The notes under the pieces were generated by a model that made no database searches, was not told the origin of the DNA, and was given only the letters and a program-made list of their open reading frames with translations. Source: Stackebrandtia albiflava (GTDB taxonomy: Bacteria; Actinomycetota; Actinomycetes; Mycobacteriales; Micromonosporaceae). Taken from it: a DNA stretch of 64,000 nucleotides. The position numbers were made by a program, and so were the translations under genes. Each line of letters begins with the position of its first letter. The stretch's first letter is position 1. Location of the stretch: the NCBI RefSeq assembly GCF_007994225.1, contig NZ_VLLL01000005.1, positions 810,359 to 874,358 on the forward strand, read 5' to 3'. Positions 1,766 to 29,528 of this stretch are shown here, piece after piece.

Positions 1766-2746
1766 ATGCCGATGTCGATGAGCCGCAGGTCGCTACTGGA
1801 ACTGGGCGCGGTCACCGCCGCCGGGGCCGTGGTGCCGTCCCCGGCGCGAAGCGGTGAGGACGAGGCGCCCGCGTCCGATCCCGAGGAGGCGGCCGACCGG
1901 ATCCGTGCGGTGTTCACCCGGTACAGCGAGGCGGCGGGCGGCTGGTGGCGGGCGAGGATCAGCGTCAACCGGCGGGACGGTTCTGCGGTGGACGCCATCG
2001 ACCGGGAGTCGGGGCGGGAACTGGAGGCGTGGAGCACCAACAAGGTGCCGGTGGCGATCGCGGTGATGCGCAAGGTCGACGACGGGGAGTTCGACGTCGA
2101 CCGGCTGCTGGACGTCACCGCGCGGGCCGCCTCACACGACGGGGACGGGATATTCGTGTACGACGACGCCTACCCCAGCCACGTCACCGTCGGGCACGTG
2201 CTCGCGAACATGTTGACCGTCTCCGACGACACCGCGGTGCGGTTGTGCGCGGAGCTGGTGACCGCCGACGAGGTCGACGGGTTGATGTCGGCGCACGGTT
2301 TTACACACACCCGTGTGCAGGAGACGGCCGGCGGCGGGTTCCTGCTGGGCCGGACCACGCCCGGTGAGCAGCACGACCTGTGGCGGGCGCTGATGGCGGG
2401 GGAGTTGCTGTCGGCGGAGTCCACCGGGCGGATCGTCCGGTTGGCGCGGTCGCCCGAGGCGTTCACCGACGGCATCCGGTTGCGGATGCCCACACCGCAG
2501 CGGCTCCGCGTCGCGACCAAGGCGGGGTGGTTCGACGCGGCGACGGACGAGCGGTGCGAGGCCGGGGTCATCGCCGACTCGGAGGGGGCCGCGGTGATGA
2601 CCTACAGCCTGTACGCGGGTGACCAGGGCGCGGCCGGTGACTTCGGCGCGACTCATCCGGCCAACGCCGCGCGCGCCGCGATGGGGCACCGGTTCGCGCG
2701 CATCGTGAGCCGCCTGCCGGGTTCCGGGATGCGCATCGCGCCGTGA
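1766..2746 (+). CDS. Exported class A beta-lactamase-like serine hydrolase
   Basis: A 326-residue predicted secreted serine hydrolase of the penicillin-binding/class A beta-lactamase fold. Residues 7-24 contain a twin-arginine-type signal (SRRSLLELGAVTAAGAV), suggesting Tat export as a folded protein. The active-site SxxK is visible as STNK near residue 92, the SDN loop as SDD (TVSDDTAVRL) near 152, and the KTG-like triad as KAG (VATKAGWF) near 252. The Asn-to-Asp change in SDN and the Thr-to-Ala change in KTG are departures from typical resistance enzymes. This points to an actinobacterial beta-lactamase-related hydrolase or cell-wall carboxypeptidase rather than a proven beta-lactamase. A GGAGGG ribosome binding site lies 9 nt before ATG 1766. 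Two further in-frame ATGs follow closely. Confidence 0.8.
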   Translation: MPMSMSRRSLLELGAVTAAGAVVPSPARSGEDEAPASDPEEAADRIRAVFTRYSEAAGGWWRARISVNRRDGSAVDAIDRESGRELEAWSTNKVPVAIAVMRKVDDGEFDVDRLLDVTARAASHDGDGIFVYDDAYPSHVTVGHVLANMLTVSDDTAVRLCAELVTADEVDGLMSAHGFTHTRVQETAGGGFLLGRTTPGEQHDLWRALMAGELLSAESTGRIVRLARSPEAFTDGIRLRMPTPQRLRVATKAGWFDAATDERCEAGVIADSEGAAVMTYSLYAGDQGAAGDFGATHPANAARAAMGHRFARIVSRLPGSGMRIAP

Positions 2747-2767
2747 GGCTTCTCCGGCTCGGCGGCC

Positions 2768-3169
2768 TCAGCCGGACGCGGACTCGGTGGGACGCAACCG
2801 CAGGCTGATCGAGTTGATGCAGTACCGCTGGTCTGGCATGTCCTTCGGGGCCAGGCCCTCACCGGTGAACAGGTGTCCCAGGTGGGATCCACAGTTGGCG
2901 CAACGTACCTCGGTGCGCCGCATCCCCAGGGAGTCGTCCTCGTGGAGGGTGACCGCCGCCTTCTCGGTGTCGGCGAACGACGGCCAGCCGCAACCGGAGT
3001 GGTACTTGGTGTCGCTGGTGAAGAGTTCGGCTCCGCAGGCGCGGCAACAGTAGACGCCGGTCGTCTCCGTGTCGGTGTACTCGCCGGTGAACGCCGGTTC
3101 CGTGCCGCCCTCCCGCAGGACCCGGTACTCGGCCTCGGTGAGCTTCTCACGCCATGGATCGGTAGTCAC
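2768..3169 (-). CDS. msrB: Peptide-methionine (R)-S-oxide reductase
   Basis: A 133-residue cytosolic repair enzyme that reduces methionine-R-sulfoxide in proteins, normally using thioredoxin. The two zinc-binding CxxC pairs are present (CRAC near residue 42 and CANC near 91). So are the GCGWPSF motif and the catalytic Cys in RYCINSISL near the C-terminus. I place the start at the GTG at 3169 (VTTDPWREKL), which follows a GGAG sequence and matches the family N-terminus. The open frame extends upstream, but the extra residues (MTGRRPAGTRYRGA) look non-native. Length and motifs match standalone MsrB enzymes. It is transcribed alone on the minus strand. Confidence 0.93.
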   Translation of the reverse strand: MTTDPWREKLTEAEYRVLREGGTEPAFTGEYTDTETTGVYCCRACGAELFTSDTKYHSGCGWPSFADTEKAAVTLHEDDSLGMRRTEVRCANCGSHLGHLFTGEGLAPKDMPDQRYCINSISLRLRPTESASG

Positions 3170-3331
3170 GGCTCCACGGTAGCGCGTCCCGGCGGGGCGG
3201 CGTCCCGTCACGCGCGAGTCTGATCGGGACGGCGGATGTGCCGATCCGGGCCATTGTGGCGCCTGTCACCTGCGGTCGTGGCAGGATCAGCACGTGCGAC
3301 GACTGCGGTAGGCCGGAACCCGGAGGTGACG

Positions 3332-3853
3332 ATGCCCGGCGCGCTCCCGATCCGGTTCCGGCCGACTCCCGGCCAGGCGGTGTCGAGGGCGGCCCGGGTG
3401 GGCCTGATCGCCGCGTCGGCCGCCGCGGCCGTGATGGCGCCCTTCGCTCTCACCCACCGGTTCTCCTGGTCGGCGGCGTGGCCGGTCGTGGTGGCGGTGG
3501 GTGCCGCCGGGGCGGTGTTCGCGGCGACGCACGCGGTCCGGGGCGGAATCGTGTTGGACGAGACCGGTGTCCGGCCGACCGGCGCGAGGTCGTGGCGGAT
3601 GCGGGCGGAGTGGCACCTGGTCACCGAGATCCGCGCCGAGCGGCGGGGATGCCGGACGGTACCGGTGGTGTACCTGGCGTCGGGACGTACCTGGCGCCTG
3701 CCGGCCCCGTACGACGCCGGGCTGCTGGAACGGGACACCCGTTTCGATCAGAAGCTGTGCGTCATCCGCAACCTGTGGGTGACGCATCGGAGCCGACGAC
3801 CTCCGCCGGACCACCGGGGCGAGACCTACTCCCGTACCGCCGCAGACGCCTGA
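3332..3853 (+). CDS. PH-domain-like membrane protein
   Basis: A 173-residue protein with two hydrophobic segments at roughly residues 25-42 and 48-68, followed by a soluble region. That region (GGIVLDETGVRPTGARSWRMRAEWHLVTEIRAERRG) resembles the bacterial PH-like domain found after two transmembrane helices in actinobacterial membrane proteins. Function is not known. ATG 3332 is chosen because a CGGAGG site lies about 7 nt upstream; a longer frame reaching back to 3236 lacks support. The last 28 bp overlap the convergent DUF3159 gene tail to tail, so the two transcripts are antisense over that stretch. Confidence 0.7.
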   Translation: MPGALPIRFRPTPGQAVSRAARVGLIAASAAAAVMAPFALTHRFSWSAAWPVVVAVGAAGAVFAATHAVRGGIVLDETGVRPTGARSWRMRAEWHLVTEIRAERRGCRTVPVVYLASGRTWRLPAPYDAGLLERDTRFDQKLCVIRNLWVTHRSRRPPPDHRGETYSRTAADA

Positions 3854-4497
3854 ACCGGCACCACGGGATGCCGTATGCCCGGGTGGGAGGCGGGCAGGTT
3901 GCGGCGCAGCACCCACCAGCTCGCCGCCAGGCACGCGGCGATGAGCGGCCAGGTCAACGCGACCCGCGCGACCGTCAGCGCCGCGGTGAAACCCCACAGC
4001 CACAGCGGAAGGAACACCGCCACCCGCAACAGGTACTGGCAGACCCACACCCAGCTCGCCCGGCCGTACGCCCGCGACAGGTCGGGGTCGCGGCGCCAAC
4101 GGGTGCGTTGGCCGAGTACACCGCCGACGACCACACCCAGCAGGGGCCAACGGATCACGATGCTGATGGCCCAGGCGAGCGCGCTGGCGGCGTTGCTGAG
4201 CAGTTGCAGGAGGAAGAAGTCCTCGGCGCGGCCGGTGTACAAGGCGATCATGCCCGCCACACAGACTCCGGCGAGGCCGACGAGCACCGAGCGGGGTTTC
4301 CCGCCCCGGCCGAGGCGCCATCCGGCGACCACGAGGCCCGCGACCACGGCGACCAGCACACCGACGACGACCGACTGACCCGCGAGCCACCAACCGAGTC
4401 CGAATGCCACCGGCGGGATGGTCGCGTCCACCGCGCCGCGCCTGCCGCCCAGCAGCGCGGCGAGTGATTCCTGCGGCCGGTCGTCGGGCTTGGTCAC
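3826..4497 (-). CDS. DUF3159-family membrane protein
   Basis: A 223-residue actinobacterial integral membrane protein. Its N-terminus (ESLAALLGGRRGAVDATIPPVAFG) and the middle segment (LLQLLSNAASALAWAISI, then RDPDLSRAYGRASWVWV) match what I recall of the DUF3159 family, which is found almost only in Actinobacteria and has no assigned function. Five to six hydrophobic segments are visible. The start is a GTG at 4497 with an AGAGGA sequence about 10 nt upstream. A palindromic GTTAGG/CCTAAC element, resembling an iron-dependent DtxR/IdeR box, lies 74-89 bp upstream. Its 3' end overlaps the PH-like gene by 28 bp. Confidence 0.82.
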   Translation of the reverse strand: MTKPDDRPQESLAALLGGRRGAVDATIPPVAFGLGWWLAGQSVVVGVLVAVVAGLVVAGWRLGRGGKPRSVLVGLAGVCVAGMIALYTGRAEDFFLLQLLSNAASALAWAISIVIRWPLLGVVVGGVLGQRTRWRRDPDLSRAYGRASWVWVCQYLLRVAVFLPLWLWGFTAALTVARVALTWPLIAACLAASWWVLRRNLPASHPGIRHPVVPVQASAAVRE

Positions 4498-4570
4498 GGC
4501 GGCGGTCCTCTATCCAGTCGGTGGGGCGACGTCTGGGCGACTCGTGGGGGTGACGTCGAGGCGGCACTTC

Positions 4571-4586
4571 GTTAGGTAAGCCTAAC
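4571..4586. promoter_or_regulatory. Candidate iron-dependent regulator (DtxR/IdeR-type) box
   Basis: The sequence GTTAGGTAAGCCTAAC has perfect 6-bp inverted arms around a 4-bp centre. It matches most of the conserved half-sites of the DtxR/IdeR/DmdR consensus (TTAGGTTAGGCTAACCTAA). It lies 74 bp upstream of the DUF3159 start on the minus strand and 317 bp upstream of the divergent gene at 4903. The rest of the 4498-4902 interval shows no other gene I can support. Confidence 0.55.
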
Positions 4587-4902
4587 GCGGGTCACCGCGT
4601 GTGCCCCCGTACACCGGCGACGAGGTCGGCCGGGTCTCACTTCCGCGCGGTGCCTCACACCGGGTGGGCCGCGTGGTCACGAGCCGGTATCCCGCCCGGA
4701 CCGGCCCGGAGGTGCGGCGGCGGCCCGGTTCCGGTGGTGTGACCGGCCCGATGCGGTGTGACGTAGGCGATGCCGTGTGGCGTCGGAGGCCACTGAGGCG
4801 GCGACGGGCGGTGACGCGACTTGTCGGCTACTGCTACCTTGCCGAAGCGGAAACCGATGGCCCGCCTTTCGCCCGCCGGGCCGGGATGGCAGTATGCGCT
4901 AG

Positions 4903-5913
4903 ATGCTGGGTACTAAGAGGTTGACGGAGCAGCAGCTCACCGACCTGCTGCGTCGACTCCAGCGTGTCAATTTCGGCCGGTGGGGACAGGCCGACATCAC
5001 CGCTGCGATCGGCGCGTTGGGCTGGCAGTTGCAGCACGGCGAGATCGACGTCGGCATGTGGCGGGCCGAGACCGGTTACGACACCGGAGCCGCCATCATC
5101 GACCGGGTGCCACCGACCCCGGGCGTGGAGTTCGTGGGGGACTTCTACGCCGTGGAGTTGATGGTGTTGCGTTCCGCGGTACGGGGCGACGCCGGGGAGA
5201 ACCACCGGACCATCGTGTTCCGCGAGGTGCTGCGCACCATGTTGCGCGAGTTCGGTCAGCCCGACGTCCGGGGCGGCGACGGCGGTCCCTGGGCACGGTG
5301 GCGGGACCCGGTGCTCACCGTCGAGTTGCATCTGCGCCGCTTCCACGGCGGTGTCAGCCTGCGGCTGTTGGCGACCGAGGCGCTGGAACGCATCGAGGCG
5401 CACAGTATCCAGCGCGGTGACGTCTCGGGGTGGACGGCCTACTCCAAGCGGCCCGAGTTGCCGTTGGAGCCCGCGGTCACCGATCTGGGCGAGTTCACCG
5501 CGAGGCTGTCGGGTGTCCTGATGGACCTGGCGGGGGACGTGCCCGTGGTCGACACCGAGGGGACCGTCATCCTGCGCACCAGCGACTGGTCCGCCAGGTT
5601 CGTACTGGCGGCCGTCGACGGTTCGGTCCGGGTGGAGGCGTCGCCGGCGGTCAAGGGCGCCCACCGCGACGGCCTGAACTACCTCGCCGGACTCGGTTAC
5701 CGCAAGCCGTCCGAACGGATGCCCACCTGGTCCCGCCAGTTCGAGGACGGCGGGCGCGACTCCACCTCCAACGCCGCGCGCATGATGGTGGACGCGTTGC
5801 GCGCCTTCGGGATCGACGACCTCTACGACATCGTCTACGACGCCTTCACCGCCGACGGCGAACGCATGTACCTTCCGGTGCTGGGCATCGCCAGCGCCGA
5901 CTCGATGAACTGA
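4903..5913 (+). CDS. Hypothetical protein with DUF6301-like N-terminus
   Basis: A 336-residue soluble acidic protein with no signal peptide. The N-terminal part (LTEQQLTDLLRRLQRVNF, then ITAAIGALGWQLQ) resembles the DUF6301-type domain seen in Streptomyces and related genera. The C-terminal half (DSTSNAARMMVDALRAFGIDDLYDIVYDAFTADG) looks like a second conserved module. I cannot assign a function; a chaperone-like role is only a loose possibility. No ribosome binding site precedes the ATG. A CAGTAT box sits 7 nt upstream, compatible with leaderless expression. It is followed by a strong hairpin between it and the convergent trpS. Confidence 0.65.
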   Translation: MLGTKRLTEQQLTDLLRRLQRVNFGRWGQADITAAIGALGWQLQHGEIDVGMWRAETGYDTGAAIIDRVPPTPGVEFVGDFYAVELMVLRSAVRGDAGENHRTIVFREVLRTMLREFGQPDVRGGDGGPWARWRDPVLTVELHLRRFHGGVSLRLLATEALERIEAHSIQRGDVSGWTAYSKRPELPLEPAVTDLGEFTARLSGVLMDLAGDVPVVDTEGTVILRTSDWSARFVLAAVDGSVRVEASPAVKGAHRDGLNYLAGLGYRKPSERMPTWSRQFEDGGRDSTSNAARMMVDALRAFGIDDLYDIVYDAFTADGERMYLPVLGIASADSMN

Positions 5914-7361: not shown

Positions 7362-7682
7362 TCAGCCGTCGCAGGTTCGCGCCGATCGCCACCGCGCGTA
7401 CACGGCCAGCGCACCCGTCTCGATCTCGCGACGCCACTCCGGCGGGTTGTCCACCCAGCCCGCGCCCCACCGGGCCTCGGCAAGGCCGTCGGGGCAGGAG
7501 ATGGTCACGAGCAGGGTGCGCCGCGCCCGCCAGACGCCCCACACCCGCAGCGTGTCCCGCGCCGTGGGGGCCGAGGTCACGGTCAGCACCTGTTGTGCGG
7601 TCTCTGCCCACCAGGTGCCGTAGACGGTGAGCCCCGCCCACGCCACGTCGGTGGCGGGGACCGCCTCCCGTGGCGGATTCAT
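7362..7682 (-). CDS. Hypothetical protein, 106 aa
   Basis: I do not recognise this protein. It is small, basic and Trp-rich (motifs VYGTWWAETAQQ, LRVWGVWRARRT and RWGAGWVDNPPEWRREIE), with no signal peptide. The ATG at 7682 overlaps the stop codon of the upstream small Cys-rich gene as ATGA, so the two are translationally coupled. The pair is divergent from the XRE regulator. The 7150-7361 interval between this gene and the trpS leader holds only the leader promoter and one copy of a GCTTGGTTGGTCA motif. Confidence 0.6.
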   Translation of the reverse strand: MNPPREAVPATDVAWAGLTVYGTWWAETAQQVLTVTSAPTARDTLRVWGVWRARRTLLVTISCPDGLAEARWGAGWVDNPPEWRREIETGALAVYARWRSARTCDG

Positions 7683-7870
7683 CGTGGCCGCCGGGAGTGC
7701 ACGACCGCGCAGGGCCAGTCGGTCCGGCAGATCTGGCAGCGTTCTCCCCGAACGACGTCCGGGAGGTGCGGCCGGTGATCGACGCCCCCGGAGGCCGCCG
7801 CCACCGCCGTGGGCTGGACCGCGATCCGTTCGGCGTCTATGCTGTCGATGCCATCCATGGAGTCCTCCAT
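7679..7870 (-). CDS. Small Cys-rich protein, possible metal-binding
   Basis: A 63-residue protein whose C-terminal part contains CQICRTDWPC, preceded by a His/Asp-rich stretch (GGVDHRPHLPDVVRGE). The C-x-x-C-x4-W-P-C pattern recurs in small actinobacterial proteins near XRE/DUF397 modules and probably binds a metal, but no function is established. It is coupled by ATGA to the 106-aa gene downstream. It starts at ATG 7870 or at the in-frame ATG 7858. It is divergent from the XRE regulator across about 220 bp. Confidence 0.55.
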   Translation of the reverse strand: MEDSMDGIDSIDAERIAVQPTAVAAASGGVDHRPHLPDVVRGERCQICRTDWPCAVVHSRRPR

Positions 7871-8093
7871 ACGCTTTGTGGACGGTTGTGCGGAGCCGGG
7901 CGCGCCTCAATCGCGCCCGGCTCCTTTCGTGAGGCCCCATCGCCCAACGGCGCAACCCCACAACGTCACCGTAGGTACGGATGCCCCGTTTTGGGAAGAC
8001 GCCACGCACTATCCGTTATGTACGGTCCTTGACGGAAACATCCGCGCCGTACCCTGCGTGACGGACACGTATGTGAGCTGCCACACTGTAGCC

Positions 8094-8918
8094 ATGACTA
8101 CCGGTAGTCCTACGATTGCGCGGCGCGTCTTGGGGACCAGTCTGCGTAATCATCGTGAATCCCGTCGTATCACCAGAACGACCGCCGGCGCGGCGATCGG
8201 TTATGCGCACCAGACGATCCAGCGCATCGAAGAGGGCACTCAGGCAACGCGCGAGCATCAGGTGCGTGGGCTTTGTCAGCTCTACGGCGTCCCTGAAGAC
8301 GAGATAGCGGAGCTGTGTCGTTATGCCAAGGAGGGCGCCAAGCGTGGCTGGTGGGAATCCTATAAGGAGGGAATGCCGCCGGAGTTCCGTGCCTTCGCGG
8401 AGACGGAGGCCGAGATCGCGGCGATGCACACGGTCGAACTGGAGCACGTTCCGGGCATCATTCAGACGGATGGATATCTGCGTGCAGCCCAAACCGCTGC
8501 GCTTCCCTTTCCGGAAGAGAAGCTGCGGGCCGTCCGGCGACTACGTCAACTCCGGCAGGAACGACTGTTCCGGCGCGATCCGCTCCCCGAGCTTCACATC
8601 GTGCTGGGGCAGTCGGCGCTGCTGTACCTCCGTCGGTTGGGTGACGTCGGTGATGAACAGCTGCGCCGTATCCGCGATGTCGCCGCTCTACCGACCGCTG
8701 ACGTCCGTGTCGCCGTGGAGCTTCACCCGGCCATGGCCTGCTCGTTCACCATTCTCACGCCAGGGCCACCGCTGCCGGGTGCGCCCTTCGTGTTCATCGA
8801 TGCGGTACACGGTGGTCGTTACGAAGAGGGTAGGGACGTAGTGTCTCTCTACGAGCGGACGTTCGCCGCTGCTCATGAAATGGCCATACCGGTAGAGGAG
8901 TACATACATGGCTGGTAA
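8094..8918 (+). CDS. XRE-family regulator with DUF5753 domain
   Basis: A 274-residue predicted DNA-binding protein. Residues 8-65 form a helix-turn-helix of the XRE/Cro type (ARRVLGTSLRNHRESRRITRTTAG, then AIGYAHQTIQRIEEG). The rest is the DUF5753 effector-like domain, recognised by the VELEHVPGIIQTDGYLRA motif and the QSALLYLRRLGD region. Such proteins are abundant in Streptomyces and relatives, usually next to DUF397 genes, and some influence morphology or secondary metabolism. Here the stop codon overlaps the ATG of the first DUF397 gene. There is no Shine-Dalgarno sequence before ATG 8094. A CACACT box 6 nt upstream, with GTGACG 18 bp further up, predicts a leaderless transcript. This gene and its neighbours are lower in GC than the surroundings. 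Confidence 0.88.
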   Translation: MTTGSPTIARRVLGTSLRNHRESRRITRTTAGAAIGYAHQTIQRIEEGTQATREHQVRGLCQLYGVPEDEIAELCRYAKEGAKRGWWESYKEGMPPEFRAFAETEAEIAAMHTVELEHVPGIIQTDGYLRAAQTAALPFPEEKLRAVRRLRQLRQERLFRRDPLPELHIVLGQSALLYLRRLGDVGDEQLRRIRDVAALPTADVRVAVELHPAMACSFTILTPGPPLPGAPFVFIDAVHGGRYEEGRDVVSLYERTFAAAHEMAIPVEEYIHGW

Positions 8919-18699: not shown

Positions 18700-18850
18700 C
18701 CACCGGTTCGGGGCTTGACGCCCACCGGCGGGGCTGCGATCCTTCACCCGCTACACCACGAACTGTGGGGGAAGTCCGGTCCGAGTCCGGCGCTGACCCG
18801 CAACGGTAGGCGTGTTCCACACACGCGAGCCCGAATACCCGCAGTCCGGA
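18700..18850 (+). ncRNA. Cobalamin riboswitch
   Basis: The conserved core is clear. A GGGGGAAGTCCGGT segment (18767-18780) is followed by a second CCGG-containing arm and GCGCTGACCCGCAACGG (18791-18807). The helix that follows has CGTGT/ACACG arms around 18811-18826. The CGAATACCCGCAG tail (18832-18844) matches the 3' end of the B12 aptamer. Upstream, GGTTCGGGGC and CCCACCGGC arms complete the expected multi-helix junction. It lies about 130 nt before the start of the exported barrel protein, on the same strand. The natural inference is that adenosyl- or another cobalamin represses that gene. Confidence 0.92.
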
Positions 18851-18978
18851 TTCGCCCCATTCGATCCCGTCGCGGTCTGCGGGATGGCAGCGCGGGAGGT
18901 GCGGCCGTGACGACGCGCCGTCGCCGCGACCGGGCGTCTGCTCGCCAACCAGCGGCCCGGCCTGCCCGAAAGGCCACC

Positions 18979-20157
18979 ATGTCCCTCCACACCGGATTCC
19001 GGCGGTTCGCCGTCGCCCTCGCGGTCGGTGCCCTCGCCGCCACCGCGTTCCCCGCCACGGCCGCCGCCGACCCGGCGGCCGACGGTGCCGCCGGAGCCGC
19101 CGCCTGGCTCGCCGGCCGGGCCGCCGCCGACGGGGGCTTCGGCGATCCCGGCACGACGGCCGACGCGGTCTTCGGCCTCGTCGCCGCCGACGCCGGAGCC
19201 GGCCACACCGCCGCCGCCCTCGACTTCCTGTCCGACCCCGCCGTGCTCGCGCCCTACATCGGCACCGCCGAGACCGGTTACCGTGCACCGCAGACCGCCA
19301 AGATCATGCTCGCCGTGCAGGCGGGCGGCGGCGACGTCAACGACTTCGGTGGCGTCGATCTGGAGGCGGCACTGCGCGGCCTGGAGGGACCGGACGGCCG
19401 ATTCCCCGGGGTACTGGCCCAACAGTTCGCCGTGCTGGTGCTCGCCCGTGACGACCAGGGCGTCTCCGGGGCGGCAGTGTCGGCGCTGGTGTCGATGCAG
19501 TGCGACGACGGCGGTTACAACTGGAGCACCACCGGAGGCGGCTGCACCGGCGACGTCGACTTCACCGCGTACGCCTCGGCCGGTCTGCTGGCCGCCGGTG
19601 AGACGACCGCCTCCGCCGACGCCCTCGACTGGCTGGAGTCGGTGCAGGGCGACACCGGCGGCTTCTCGGCCGGTTTCCCGGGCGCGCCCGAGAACGCCAA
19701 CTCCACCGGACTGGCCGCCGGTGTGCTGGCCGACGGAGGCCGGGACGACGCCGCCGCGAAGGCCGTGGCGTTCGTGCTGGGCCTCCAGCAGGGTTGCGAC
19801 GCGCCCGAGGCCGACCGCGGCGCGATCAACTACGACTCCGGCGACTTCAACCCGGGCCCGGCCGTCATGGCCACCGCGCAGGCGCTCACCGGCATCACCG
19901 GGGAGGGCCTGGTCGGGCTGGACCACTCCGACGACACCGACGCGCTGCCGGGTCTCGACTGCGACGGTCCTTCGGAACCCGGTGAGTCCCCGGCACCGGA
20001 GGAACCCGGCACGTCACCCTCCGCCCGGCCGGACGAGTCGGTGTTGCCGGTGACGGGCGGTTCGTGGGGGCTTCCGCTGATGCTCGGCGCCGCCCTCGTG
20101 GTCGTCGGTGTCGTCCTGGCGGCCCTCACCCGGCGCACCGGTCGGGGCGAGCGCTAG
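18979..20157 (+). CDS. Riboswitch-controlled, sortase-anchored alpha/alpha-barrel protein; candidate surface cobalamin-binding protein
   Basis: A 392-residue exported protein. A Sec signal covers residues 1-32 (ending ATAAADP). Residues 33-330 carry repeats of the prenyltransferase/squalene cyclase alpha6/alpha6-barrel type, such as WLAGRAAADGGFGDPGTTADAVFGL, SMQCDDGGYNWST and WLESVQGDTGGFSAGF. This is the fold also used by vertebrate intrinsic factor and transcobalamin. Catalytic Asp-rich cyclase motifs are absent. A Pro/Glu/Ser-rich linker (about 330-352) leads to LPVTG (356-360), a hydrophobic helix and a basic tail, a complete sortase signal. With the B12 riboswitch upstream, I infer a wall-attached cobalamin scavenger; binding is not proven. 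The ATG has AAAGG about 5 nt upstream. Confidence 0.85.
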   Translation: MSLHTGFRRFAVALAVGALAATAFPATAAADPAADGAAGAAAWLAGRAAADGGFGDPGTTADAVFGLVAADAGAGHTAAALDFLSDPAVLAPYIGTAETGYRAPQTAKIMLAVQAGGGDVNDFGGVDLEAALRGLEGPDGRFPGVLAQQFAVLVLARDDQGVSGAAVSALVSMQCDDGGYNWSTTGGGCTGDVDFTAYASAGLLAAGETTASADALDWLESVQGDTGGFSAGFPGAPENANSTGLAAGVLADGGRDDAAAKAVAFVLGLQQGCDAPEADRGAINYDSGDFNPGPAVMATAQALTGITGEGLVGLDHSDDTDALPGLDCDGPSEPGESPAPEEPGTSPSARPDESVLPVTGGSWGLPLMLGAALVVVGVVLAALTRRTGRGER

Positions 20158-26838: not shown

Positions 26839-28080
26839 TCAGTCGTCGTCGGTCTGAGTGGTGTCCGGGGGCTCCAGGTAGCTGCCCTCCAGGAACTCCT
26901 CCCAGCTCAGGTCGTAGGCGGTGAAGCCGTCACCGTAGGGCAACTCCACGCCCGTGCCGGTCACGATCACCGGGTCGCCGACGCGGGTGAAGTTGAAGAT
27001 CCACTCCGAGTCGGCGGGGGAGGCGTTCACGCAGCCGTGCGAGACGTTCCGCACGCCCTGATCGCCCACCGACCACGGCGCCGAGTGGATGAACTGCCCA
27101 CTCCAGGTCAACCGCTGCGCCCACTGGATGTCGGTGATGTAGCAGTCCTCACCGTCCTCCTCGCCGTTGCAGCCGGGTTCGTTCGTGGTGTCGAACACCG
27201 TCTCGGCGAGCTTCTCCATCACGATCATCGTGCCGGAGTAGGAGGGACTGCTGTCCTTGCCCAGGCTGATCGGCATGGTCTTGACGACCTCGCCGTTCTC
27301 CATGGCCACCATCTGCTTGGTCTCGTTGCTGACCTCCACCGACCGCGCGGTGCCGCTGATGTGTACCGTCTGCGTGATGTCGGCCTCGCCGTACACCCCG
27401 CCGCCCAACGGCATCCCGCCGATGGCGGCGCGCACCTCGATCACCGTGCCGGGCTGCCAGTACTCCTGAGGCCGGTATTCGAGGTGGTTGCCGCTGAACC
27501 AGTGCCACGCGCCCGGCTGCGGCGGGTCGCTCTTCACGAACAGCCGCCGTTCGACGTTGGCGCGTTCCTCCTCGGGAACCGAGAACTCACGCGGGAAGTC
27601 GAGCATGATCGGCGTCGCCTGGCCGTACTCGTATTCCGAACCGTTCCAGATCGAGGCGAACATCTGGTTCCCCGGACTCGCCATGGTCGTGAACGTCGTC
27701 TCGGTGGTCACCGGGATCTCGTCGGCGTCCACGGCGGTCACCGCGGCGGTGTAGGTGGTCTCGTACTCCAGGGGTGACGAGGGAACCCAACTCGTGCCGT
27801 CCGGACGCAGCTCACCCTCCACGGGTTCGCCACCCTCCGGTTGCAGAACCACCTCGGTGACCTCGCCGGCCTCGACCTCCACACCGATCTCGGTGCTGAC
27901 CGGGGCCTCCTCGGTCCCGGTCTCGGGCGAGACCGTGAGCTGCGCGGCCGACTCGGGCGGGGGCTCCTCGCCCTTACCGTCCACGAGCTTGGCGTCGGCG
28001 CCGCACGCGGCCAGCCCACCGGCGACGAGCACTCCCGCGCCGAACGCCATCAAGGCACGACGAAACTTCCGGCTTCCCAT
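26839..28080 (-). CDS. L,D-transpeptidase lipoprotein (YkuD/LdtMt2-like)
   Basis: A 413-residue exported peptidoglycan cross-linking enzyme. A lipobox (LAAC, Cys 26) ends the signal sequence, so it is a predicted lipoprotein. Residues 45-250 form Ig-like domains as in mycobacterial LdtMt2. The YkuD catalytic domain (about 255-380) has HSAPWSVGDQGVRNVSHGCVN, with the catalytic Cys and the preceding His and Ser. It makes 3-3 cross-links between diaminopimelate residues, which are insensitive to most beta-lactams except carbapenems. The start is ATG 28080. It lies just downstream of another cell-wall protein gene and near the mur cluster, consistent with a role in envelope remodelling. Confidence 0.92.
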   Translation of the reverse strand: MGSRKFRRALMAFGAGVLVAGGLAACGADAKLVDGKGEEPPPESAAQLTVSPETGTEEAPVSTEIGVEVEAGEVTEVVLQPEGGEPVEGELRPDGTSWVPSSPLEYETTYTAAVTAVDADEIPVTTETTFTTMASPGNQMFASIWNGSEYEYGQATPIMLDFPREFSVPEEERANVERRLFVKSDPPQPGAWHWFSGNHLEYRPQEYWQPGTVIEVRAAIGGMPLGGGVYGEADITQTVHISGTARSVEVSNETKQMVAMENGEVVKTMPISLGKDSSPSYSGTMIVMEKLAETVFDTTNEPGCNGEEDGEDCYITDIQWAQRLTWSGQFIHSAPWSVGDQGVRNVSHGCVNASPADSEWIFNFTRVGDPVIVTGTGVELPYGDGFTAYDLSWEEFLEGSYLEPPDTTQTDDD

Positions 28081-29335
28081 GGGTAGCAACGGTACACACC
28101 ACGGACACCCCAAACCGCCCCGCTGTACCCGTGCAGGCGGGGGACATGTCCGAAGTCACCGCATTTACACCGGTATATCCGCCGTCTCGGCGGGCGGGCC
28201 GACCGGTTCGGTGGAGGGGGCCTCGGCCGAACCGGCGTGACGGTAATCGCATCGACAGATGCACGTGGTTCGTGTGGTCGCTCGACGGGTCTCCACCGCC
28301 GCCGTTGTACGCGATCCACCCCTGCGCCGGGTCCCAGTACTGGTTGTACCAGATGACGTACATGACCCCCAGCGCACTGGCGTTCTCCACGAACCACGCC
28401 GCGAGGTTGTCGCCGTACTCCTTGTCCGCGCCCACCGCCACGCCGCCGAACCCCTGAGACGGCTGCACCGAGAAGTCACACGCCCGCCCCAACGGGTGTT
28501 CGCCGAACGTCCCGCCCCGGTAACAGGAGACGAAACGCTGGAAACCACTGATCTGCGCCTGCTGCAGCGCGTGCAGTGTGCGCGGGGTCAGGCAACCCGA
28601 TGCCGGGGTCGGGTCGTCGACCGAGCAGCTCTCATAGGGCAGGGACCCGTCGGTGTTGCGAGGTGCCGGATCCGCGGCACGGAAGTCACCGGGGGAGGGA
28701 CCGGTGGTGGCGTTACCGCCGTTGGCGGCGATGGCCGACGCGGCGGCGTCCCGGGCGTCACGCAGATCGTCCAACGCCTTCTCGGCCGCGGCGATCTCGT
28801 CCTCCAGGCTCTGCTTCTCGGCCTCCAGGTCCTCCTTCGACTCCCTGAGCTCACGCAGCTTGATGCCGCTCTGGTCACCGAGATAACTCACCGTCGTCAG
28901 ACCGTCGATCGCCACGTCCGGCGAACCGGTCGACAGGATCGCCGTCGCGGACGACAGCGACCGCGTGGTGTACAGGACCTCCGCGAAGTCGTTGACCTCG
29001 GCGGTCAACGTCTCGATCTCGGCCTCGCTCTCGGTGATCGTCTCCTTGATCTCCTCCTGGCGGGTCTCCGACGCCGCCAGGGCCTCCTCGGCAGCCAGGT
29101 ACTCCTCGATGGCCGCCGACAGGTCACCGCCCAGGTCCGACTCACCCTCCGCGGGATCGGCGACCGCCGGAGACGACAACAGCAGCACGATCGAGGCGAC
29201 GGCCGCGATCAGGAAACGAACCGGGAGACGGGACGGGACGGCCGCCGACGGCACGGGGGAGACGGCGGGGCACCGCGTGCCCACGCGACGACGCCGATCG
29301 ATACGACCGGCACCGTGATGCCTGTCAGGGGTCAC
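27974..29335 (-). CDS. Secreted coiled-coil protein with M15/VldE-like C-terminal domain; possible 3' frameshift
   Basis: A 453-residue frame. A signal anchor (FLIAAVASIVLLLSSPAVAD) is preceded by an unusually long basic N-region. Residues 65-195 are a strong coiled coil rich in Glu/Ala (EEIKETITESEAEIETLTAEV). The C-terminal domain has EHPLGRACDFSV and DHTNHVHLS, His/Asp zinc-ligand motifs of D-Ala-D-Ala-type peptidases. GTG 29335 has AAGGA 7 nt upstream. After HVHLSM the frame becomes Arg-rich and runs 107 bp into the transpeptidase gene. A shift to the next frame near 28244 gives a better-looking tail (AEAPSTEPVGPPAETADIPV) ending at 28165. I suspect a one-base frameshift or sequence error. 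Confidence 0.75.
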   Translation of the reverse strand: MTPDRHHGAGRIDRRRRVGTRCPAVSPVPSAAVPSRLPVRFLIAAVASIVLLLSSPAVADPAEGESDLGGDLSAAIEEYLAAEEALAASETRQEEIKETITESEAEIETLTAEVNDFAEVLYTTRSLSSATAILSTGSPDVAIDGLTTVSYLGDQSGIKLRELRESKEDLEAEKQSLEDEIAAAEKALDDLRDARDAAASAIAANGGNATTGPSPGDFRAADPAPRNTDGSLPYESCSVDDPTPASGCLTPRTLHALQQAQISGFQRFVSCYRGGTFGEHPLGRACDFSVQPSQGFGGVAVGADKEYGDNLAAWFVENASALGVMYVIWYNQYWDPAQGWIAYNGGGGDPSSDHTNHVHLSMRLPSRRFGRGPLHRTGRPARRDGGYTGVNAVTSDMSPACTGTAGRFGVSVVCTVATHGKPEVSSCLDGVRRGSARRRWAGRVRRRRQARGR

Positions 29336-29528
29336 GTACACGTCCTTCTTCGTCGACCGCTTACCGGGTTAGCTGTCGGGTTCGGGCCGAAGCCGCCCTA
29401 CCGCGCGGCGGACGGGAGGCCGCGCCGCGTACGGATTCACCCCTGCCCCGCCTCGGGCGGAGCGGTGGTTCCCCGGCTCGCCCGTCACCGGGCGACTCAG
29501 CGGTGGCCGCCCCCGCCACACGGTGTGG

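Follow-up and report, generated by a model that had tools for sequence, protein, structure and literature searches.

Animals and Gram-negative gut bacteria are well known to capture vitamin B12 outside the cell. BtuG and BtuH of Bacteroidetes likewise provide an extra step of B12 capture at the surface, with other folds and at the Gram-negative outer membrane, and the S component of energy-coupling factor (ECF) importers is, to our knowledge, otherwise thought to catch its vitamin alone. The animal carriers transcobalamin, haptocorrin and intrinsic factor are secreted proteins in which an alpha/alpha toroid is combined with a beta-grasp domain bearing a hairpin after its helix, cobalamin being bound between the two. 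Among bacteria, Burroughs et al. 2007 (PMC1796856) predicted that toroid-SLBB proteins bind B12; these join a toroid to a transcobalamin-like domain, are mostly secreted and in several cases carry a Gram-positive anchor, and the authors proposed that animals obtained transcobalamin from bacteria. Their clade lies mainly in low-GC Gram-positives and planctomycetes, with beta domains standing alone or fused to the toroid or to other domains, and the available part of that paper contains no actinobacterial split pair and no ECF operon; its text nowhere uses the word riboswitch. An ECF module importing cobalamin (PMC5997447), presumably CbrT, and one of acI Actinobacteria, found behind cobalamin riboswitches and suggested to import cobalamin (PMC5301498), have also been described. 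Unlike the system considered below, neither comes with extracellular alpha and beta proteins in the available parts of those reports. Here we analysed a stretch of 64,000 nucleotides from Stackebrandtia albiflava (GCF_007994225.1, contig NZ_VLLL01000005.1, positions 810,359 to 874,358; hereafter the window), in which a cobalamin riboswitch precedes a gene for a wall-anchored toroid protein (alpha). In the literature searched, which covered few subscription papers, we found no description of a split cluster of alpha, beta and ECF genes, and the published Gram-positive view reaches no further there than the membrane importer and the 2007 prediction.

We consider it probable that the product of the window gene, anchored by sortase and controlled by a riboswitch, is the toroid half of a split system resembling transcobalamin that captures corrinoids and feeds ECF import. 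Like the animal carriers, this system comprises a secreted toroid and a beta-grasp domain whose helix is followed by a hairpin. In contrast to them, the two halves are separate genes (a fused exception, L064, has another domain order), the window gene supplies the toroid only, and a wall anchor, a riboswitch and an ECF transporter take the place of receptor-mediated endocytosis. The locus is real, well conserved and functionally coherent, and its strongest evidence lies outside the window. Its features, all on the + strand, are:

18746..18860, +, cobalamin riboswitch aptamer (RF00174, 39.6 bits, E 1.6e-6)
18864..18885, +, hairpin ATCCCGT-CGCGGTCT-GCGGGAT directly 3' of the aptamer, a candidate regulatory kissing-loop
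18959..18975, +, hairpin GGCCTGCCCGAAAGGCC around the ribosome-binding site GAAAGG (18968-18973), with a putative sequestering role
18979..20157, +, wall-anchored toroid (alpha) gene of 392 amino acids, with ATG at 18979 behind GAAAGG and stop at 20157
18979..19068, +, signal peptide, residues 1-30 (by eye)
19069..19905, +, alpha/alpha toroid domain (AlphaFold predicted local distance difference test score 95.6, predicted template-modelling score 0.92; VIA-align matches over model residues 1-279)
20044..20058, +, LPVTG sortase motif (from sequence; the genome encodes two sortases)
20068..20154, +, membrane helix and basic tail (by eye)

The alpha protein begins with a signal-like start, continues through about 280 residues of helical repeats and an acidic, proline-rich linker, and closes with LPVTG, a hydrophobic stretch and the tail TRRTGRGER, so that no C-terminal beta domain is present in the same chain. 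The LPXTG motif, hydrophobic stretch and basic tail, together with sortases in the genome, mark it as a sortase substrate, and the AlphaFold model of residues 31-341 is mostly helical and forms an alpha/alpha toroid. The signal peptide, alpha/alpha barrel and LPVTG end proposed in a previous sequence-only reading of the window were borne out. No Pfam family reached its own cut-off in the protein, and PF01122 (transcobalamin / intrinsic factor) was absent from its Pfam matches. PF01122 gave weak matches in 18 of the 55 alpha relatives (best E 0.0052), and a search of 296 genomes with it returned nothing, its 14 controls being equally silent. The NCBIfam model NF053823 (SCO2321_fam) matched with E 7.5e-21 and 74.5 bits against a cut-off of 300, and judged from sequence the protein is clearly homologous to that family; the beta protein encoded elsewhere in the genome matched NF040672 (SCO2322_fam) with E 1.7e-4 and 22 bits against a cut-off of 85. 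Because these scores lie far under the curated cut-offs, we do not count alpha and beta as members. The two families are named just 'membrane protein' and 'family protein', and for SCO2321-SCO2324 the literature searched yielded one paper, about a delivery peptide; the alpha/beta reading suggests functions for both.

A covariance search of the window (cmscan) placed the riboswitch, which the sequence-only reading had put ahead of the gene, above the gathering threshold of 31.5 bits. The CGCGGTCT loop of the hairpin behind the aptamer holds GGUC, complementary to GACC inside the aptamer, and this hairpin is a candidate for L13 of an L5/L13 kissing-loop pair. Hairpins with a GGTY loop followed 50 of 132 riboswitch cores versus 14 of 132 in one shuffle; half of the 50 (25/50) had the loop CGnGGTCY, on stems that vary by lineage (ATCCCGT, CGCCTGT). 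The GGCCTGCCCGAAAGGCC hairpin belongs to the minimum-energy fold of the 250-nt leader, and L039 and L040, relatives from the same genus, show a similar string ahead of their starts by eye. The whole leader was not stabler than shuffles (RNA folding, z -0.46), and no terminator-like or sigma-70-like site was found near the gene. Because the GGUC loop can pair with the aptamer and GGCCTGCCCGAAAGGCC can enclose the ribosome-binding site, cobalamin likely represses translation of the window gene.

Relatives of the window protein (P0001) were present in 51 of 150 family genomes, its own included. Among 29 family loci (L010-L038), a riboswitch scored above gathering just upstream on the same strand in 21 and more weakly in 6 more, with the nearest relative, L010, matching the AdoCbl family RF01482 (41.1 bits, under the cut-off of 50); L036 had a riboswitch about 1 kb upstream, and L019 had none. 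When 40 regions, each spanning 10-20 kb, were searched, 36 contained beta and 34 an ECF T or S gene. Neither was present in L039, which is orthologous to the window locus; L069 and L078 were truncated by contig ends, L056 had ECF genes without beta, and L043, L052 and L077 had beta without a strong ECF match. The second set, from named genomes, was drawn from 127 confirmed matches to a single conserved peptide, of which the best 80 (79 loci) were kept; it shares genomes with the family set, so the two are not independent. Its loci come from Micromonospora, Dactylosporangium, Catellatospora, Glycomyces, Saccharothrix, Amycolatopsis, Embleya and others. The riboswitch core motif lay at most 900 nt upstream of alpha in 74 of the 79 and was absent when these 1.24 Mb were shuffled once by mononucleotide; where it was missing from a locus, alpha was a later gene of a riboswitch-led cluster in L108, L121 and L124, and not in L111 and L146. 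In 60 loci beta lay within 1.5 kb of alpha, a number that rises to 72 when the whole locus is counted, and 66 loci had an ECF T or S gene. The survey of riboswitch-plus-alpha genes beside importers, an idea of the sequence-only reading, came out in its favour. Many relatives hold alpha, beta and ECF T/AA'/S genes in one riboswitch-led cluster. The spread of this cluster over many actinomycete genera offers a definite candidate for a bacterial transcobalamin that can be put to the test, and it bears on the 2007 proposal (PMC1796856) that animals acquired theirs from bacteria. Extra cobalamin-riboswitch cores were seen on either side of the cluster in L083, L084, L127 and others.

For family comparisons we collected 39 alpha1, 24 alpha2 and 58 beta stretches. 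The alpha alignment (A2) has 55 rows (36 alpha1, 18 alpha2 and the window row), the beta alignment (A3) 40 of the 58 stretches, and the ECF S alignment (A7) 19 rows, rows with stop codons having been shortened or left out. The beta protein of the S. albiflava genome was modelled as a beta-grasp fold with a hairpin insert, that of the transcobalamin beta domain, and the best solved matches listed were animal transcobalamin, haptocorrin and intrinsic factor. Searched against the PDB by sequence it gave nothing, and a profile-profile search gave E 0.0063 with a probability of 6%; the fold assignment was decided by the structure model. Assignment of beta to DUF4430 by Pfam profile was rejected, as 0 of 40 members matched at E 1. 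An alpha match was found within the fetched flanks (at most 1.5 kb) of DUF4430 genes from other Actinomycetota in only 1 of 30 loci (L178), so that for most of the phylum's DUF4430 proteins no adjacent alpha was seen in such flanks. L192 carries two kinds of beta-like protein in one cluster, a DUF4430 protein (7436-8137, +) being the last gene of a riboswitch-beta-ECF-alpha cluster beside an LPLTG alpha. In L064 (1-2778, +), a single frame of 926 amino acids reads beta-alpha-alpha-MPVTG, a bacterial fusion of both transcobalamin halves, and in L061 (about 2513-5104, -) a stop-to-stop frame of 864 amino acids apparently holds two tandem toroids and a membrane tail, by eye. The ECF S component had no sequence match to a solved S component, its one match to solved structures being chance-like (E 1.7).

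The ends of the relatives differ between the two kinds of alpha. By a crude pattern, 21 of the 24 alpha2 stretches were sortase-like and 3 had a membrane tail, two of these three calls being L064, whose MPVTG escaped the pattern. The 39 alpha1 stretches comprised 9 sortase-like ends (about 7 by eye, L056 and L071 being probably chance matches), 6 membrane tails and 24 without a visible anchor. Given these counts, many relatives apparently carry one released and one anchored alpha.

Of the four cobalamin riboswitches in the S. albiflava genome (5.55 Mb, 98% complete), one lies ahead of the window gene. The second precedes an alpha paralogue with 41% identity to the window protein in the match, likewise ending in LPVTG and followed by the small secreted beta protein, a CbiQ-type ECF T protein, a protein with two ABC ATPase domains and an ECF S-like protein; the third precedes btuF, btuC and btuD homologues. 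The cluster arrangement was not found, by eye, at the window locus; it was present for the paralogue (L005). No transporter gene was recognised by eye among open reading frames of at least 100 amino acids at 10-30 kb of the window, a set that was not put through family searches in full. The sequence-only reading had noted no adjacent transporter and expected a system encoded elsewhere, and both points held. The genome also has one beta gene and a B12-dependent methionine synthase, and CbiC, a marker of corrin-ring synthesis, gave no match in it, the same search being positive in 89 of 150 family genomes. Because CbiC gave no match, ECF and btuFCD operons are riboswitch-led and a B12-dependent methionine synthase is present, the cell most likely takes up cobamides. 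Family-wide, CbiC was found in 17 of 51 genomes with alpha versus 72 of 99 without (p 4e-6, uncorrected for kinship, and the genera differ in both traits). Being rarer where alpha is present, it fits import rather than cobalt supply.

Since the family looks like a two-part counterpart of transcobalamin usually found beside a vitamin-type importer, the window protein most likely catches B12 outside the cell. Low intracellular cobalamin would let the riboswitch permit translation, and sortase would fix the toroid on the cell wall, where it would capture scarce cobamide outside the membrane. The toroid would close on the cobamide with the separately encoded, transcobalamin-fold beta protein, and the alpha/beta pair may then pass it to the ECF transporter. 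The window copy, an orphan, could share the single beta and an ECF (or BtuFCD) importer from elsewhere, or bind alone as an extra scavenging receptor. By a modest margin of belief we favour a broader picture, in which Actinobacteria possess a two-subunit transcobalamin, released or anchored to wall or membrane, that clamps cobamide for a dedicated ECF importer, all under cobalamin riboswitches, and the window gene is a satellite receptor that left its operon and kept its switch and anchor. If true, this would be a receptor-assisted route of ECF import.

Several points temper the reading as corrinoid capture for import. The window copy is one of two binding halves with no beta gene adjacent, and its residue 248 (19720-19722) is Gly; Gln stands there in 50 of 53 other members, and the only other Gly at this position of the alignment is that of the orphan L039. 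A third of the genomes with alpha do carry CbiC. We also dropped the idea that the fold by itself identifies a transcobalamin, since intrinsic factor comes after toroid enzymes among matches to the alpha model. The sequence-only guess of wall-anchored cobalamin capture was a good one: it is well supported for the family by the riboswitch, the transcobalamin-beta-fold partner and the ECF neighbourhood, and only partly supported for this copy, whose binding is a prediction. The structural argument of that reading was weaker than assumed: a toroid is indeed predicted, its nearest folds are class II terpene cyclases, and fold by itself does not indicate transcobalamin.

The orphan state is shared. 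In a tree of the 55 alphas, with two clades both supported at 100/100, the window alpha pairs with L039 (genome G004), then with the operonic L040 (G046), then with L041 and eight further rows. This 12-row group has support of 100/99, and L041 and the eight rows are operonic except L069, cut by a contig end. L039 keeps the order of all 10 genes that were tested between 12.3 and 25.6 kb, at 64.6% identity for alpha and 63-93% for the others. S. albiflava (G000) and G004 have exactly one beta each, and the genus members G066 and G083 neither alpha nor beta. Most simply, G000 and G004 would descend from an ancestor whose alpha at this locus lost its partner genes or moved away from them, and the orphan may share the one beta or have shifted in ligand. 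After loss of beta, the toroid could have diverged into a surface binder for storage, competition or another corrinoid or precursor (such as cobinamide) that does not serve ECF uptake. The missing adjacent beta and transporter in both species, the one beta per genome and three substitutions common to both orphans (G104P, A202G and Q248G, with L040 keeping the family residue at two of the three) speak for such a shift. We nevertheless regard it as unlikely, as the riboswitch family is that of the uptake operons, the locus has been kept in place at the identity given above, and only 3 of 46 strongly conserved columns are altered.

A role as an extracellular enzyme, akin to toroid glycosidases or class II terpene cyclases and linked to cobalamin only through its regulation, seems very improbable for the toroid. 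The closest folds to the model (VIA-align) are drimenyl diphosphate synthase and squalene-hopene cyclase. One PDB profile search with alpha listed toroid enzymes, complement and macroglobulins, with squalene-hopene cyclases the best matches and transcobalamin absent among the matches listed (best 60 of 76), and another had no transcobalamin among all 24 matches. Class II terpene cyclases carry the acid motifs DXDD or DxDTT. The sequence-only reading had seen no cyclase motif, a point that calls for correction: residues 192-196 of alpha read D-V-D-F-T, and this D-x-D-x-T string is conserved in the family (second D in 54 of 55 rows, T in 55 of 55). Because the other repeats of this toroid hold similar T-A and T-G strings (consensus, by eye), the string may be structural. 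The protein is also secreted and wall-anchored, where prenyl diphosphates are not expected, and its relatives neighbour a transcobalamin-beta-fold protein and a vitamin-type importer and are in one case fused to the beta fold (L064). We give hardly any credence to the idea that the alpha/beta/ECF system has as its ligand cobalt, or some B12-linked compound other than a cobamide: its T component matches CbiQ 'cobalt transport' and PMC11477304 assigns an ECF system behind a B12 riboswitch in C. difficile to cobalt, but the CbiC distribution is opposite to that expected of a cobalt importer, the S. albiflava genome gave no CbiC match, and the beta fold is that of cobalamin binders.

The nearest neighbours of the window gene encode a RibD_C reductase, a serine-hydrolase-fold protein and an acyltransferase, with no obvious link to B12. 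The fourth cobalamin riboswitch (L001 1501-1734, G000:C2:1567605-1567838), the best of the genome at 51.2 bits, precedes a thioesterase-superfamily gene of the 4HBT type and a LysE-type exporter gene, which perhaps respond to acyl-CoA build-up when B12 is short. Within the window, a cyclic di-AMP riboswitch (RF00379, 29343-29512, -, 53.7 bits) stands ahead of a secreted-looking coiled-coil protein (27974-29341, -), an ordinary arrangement before actinobacterial cell-wall genes.
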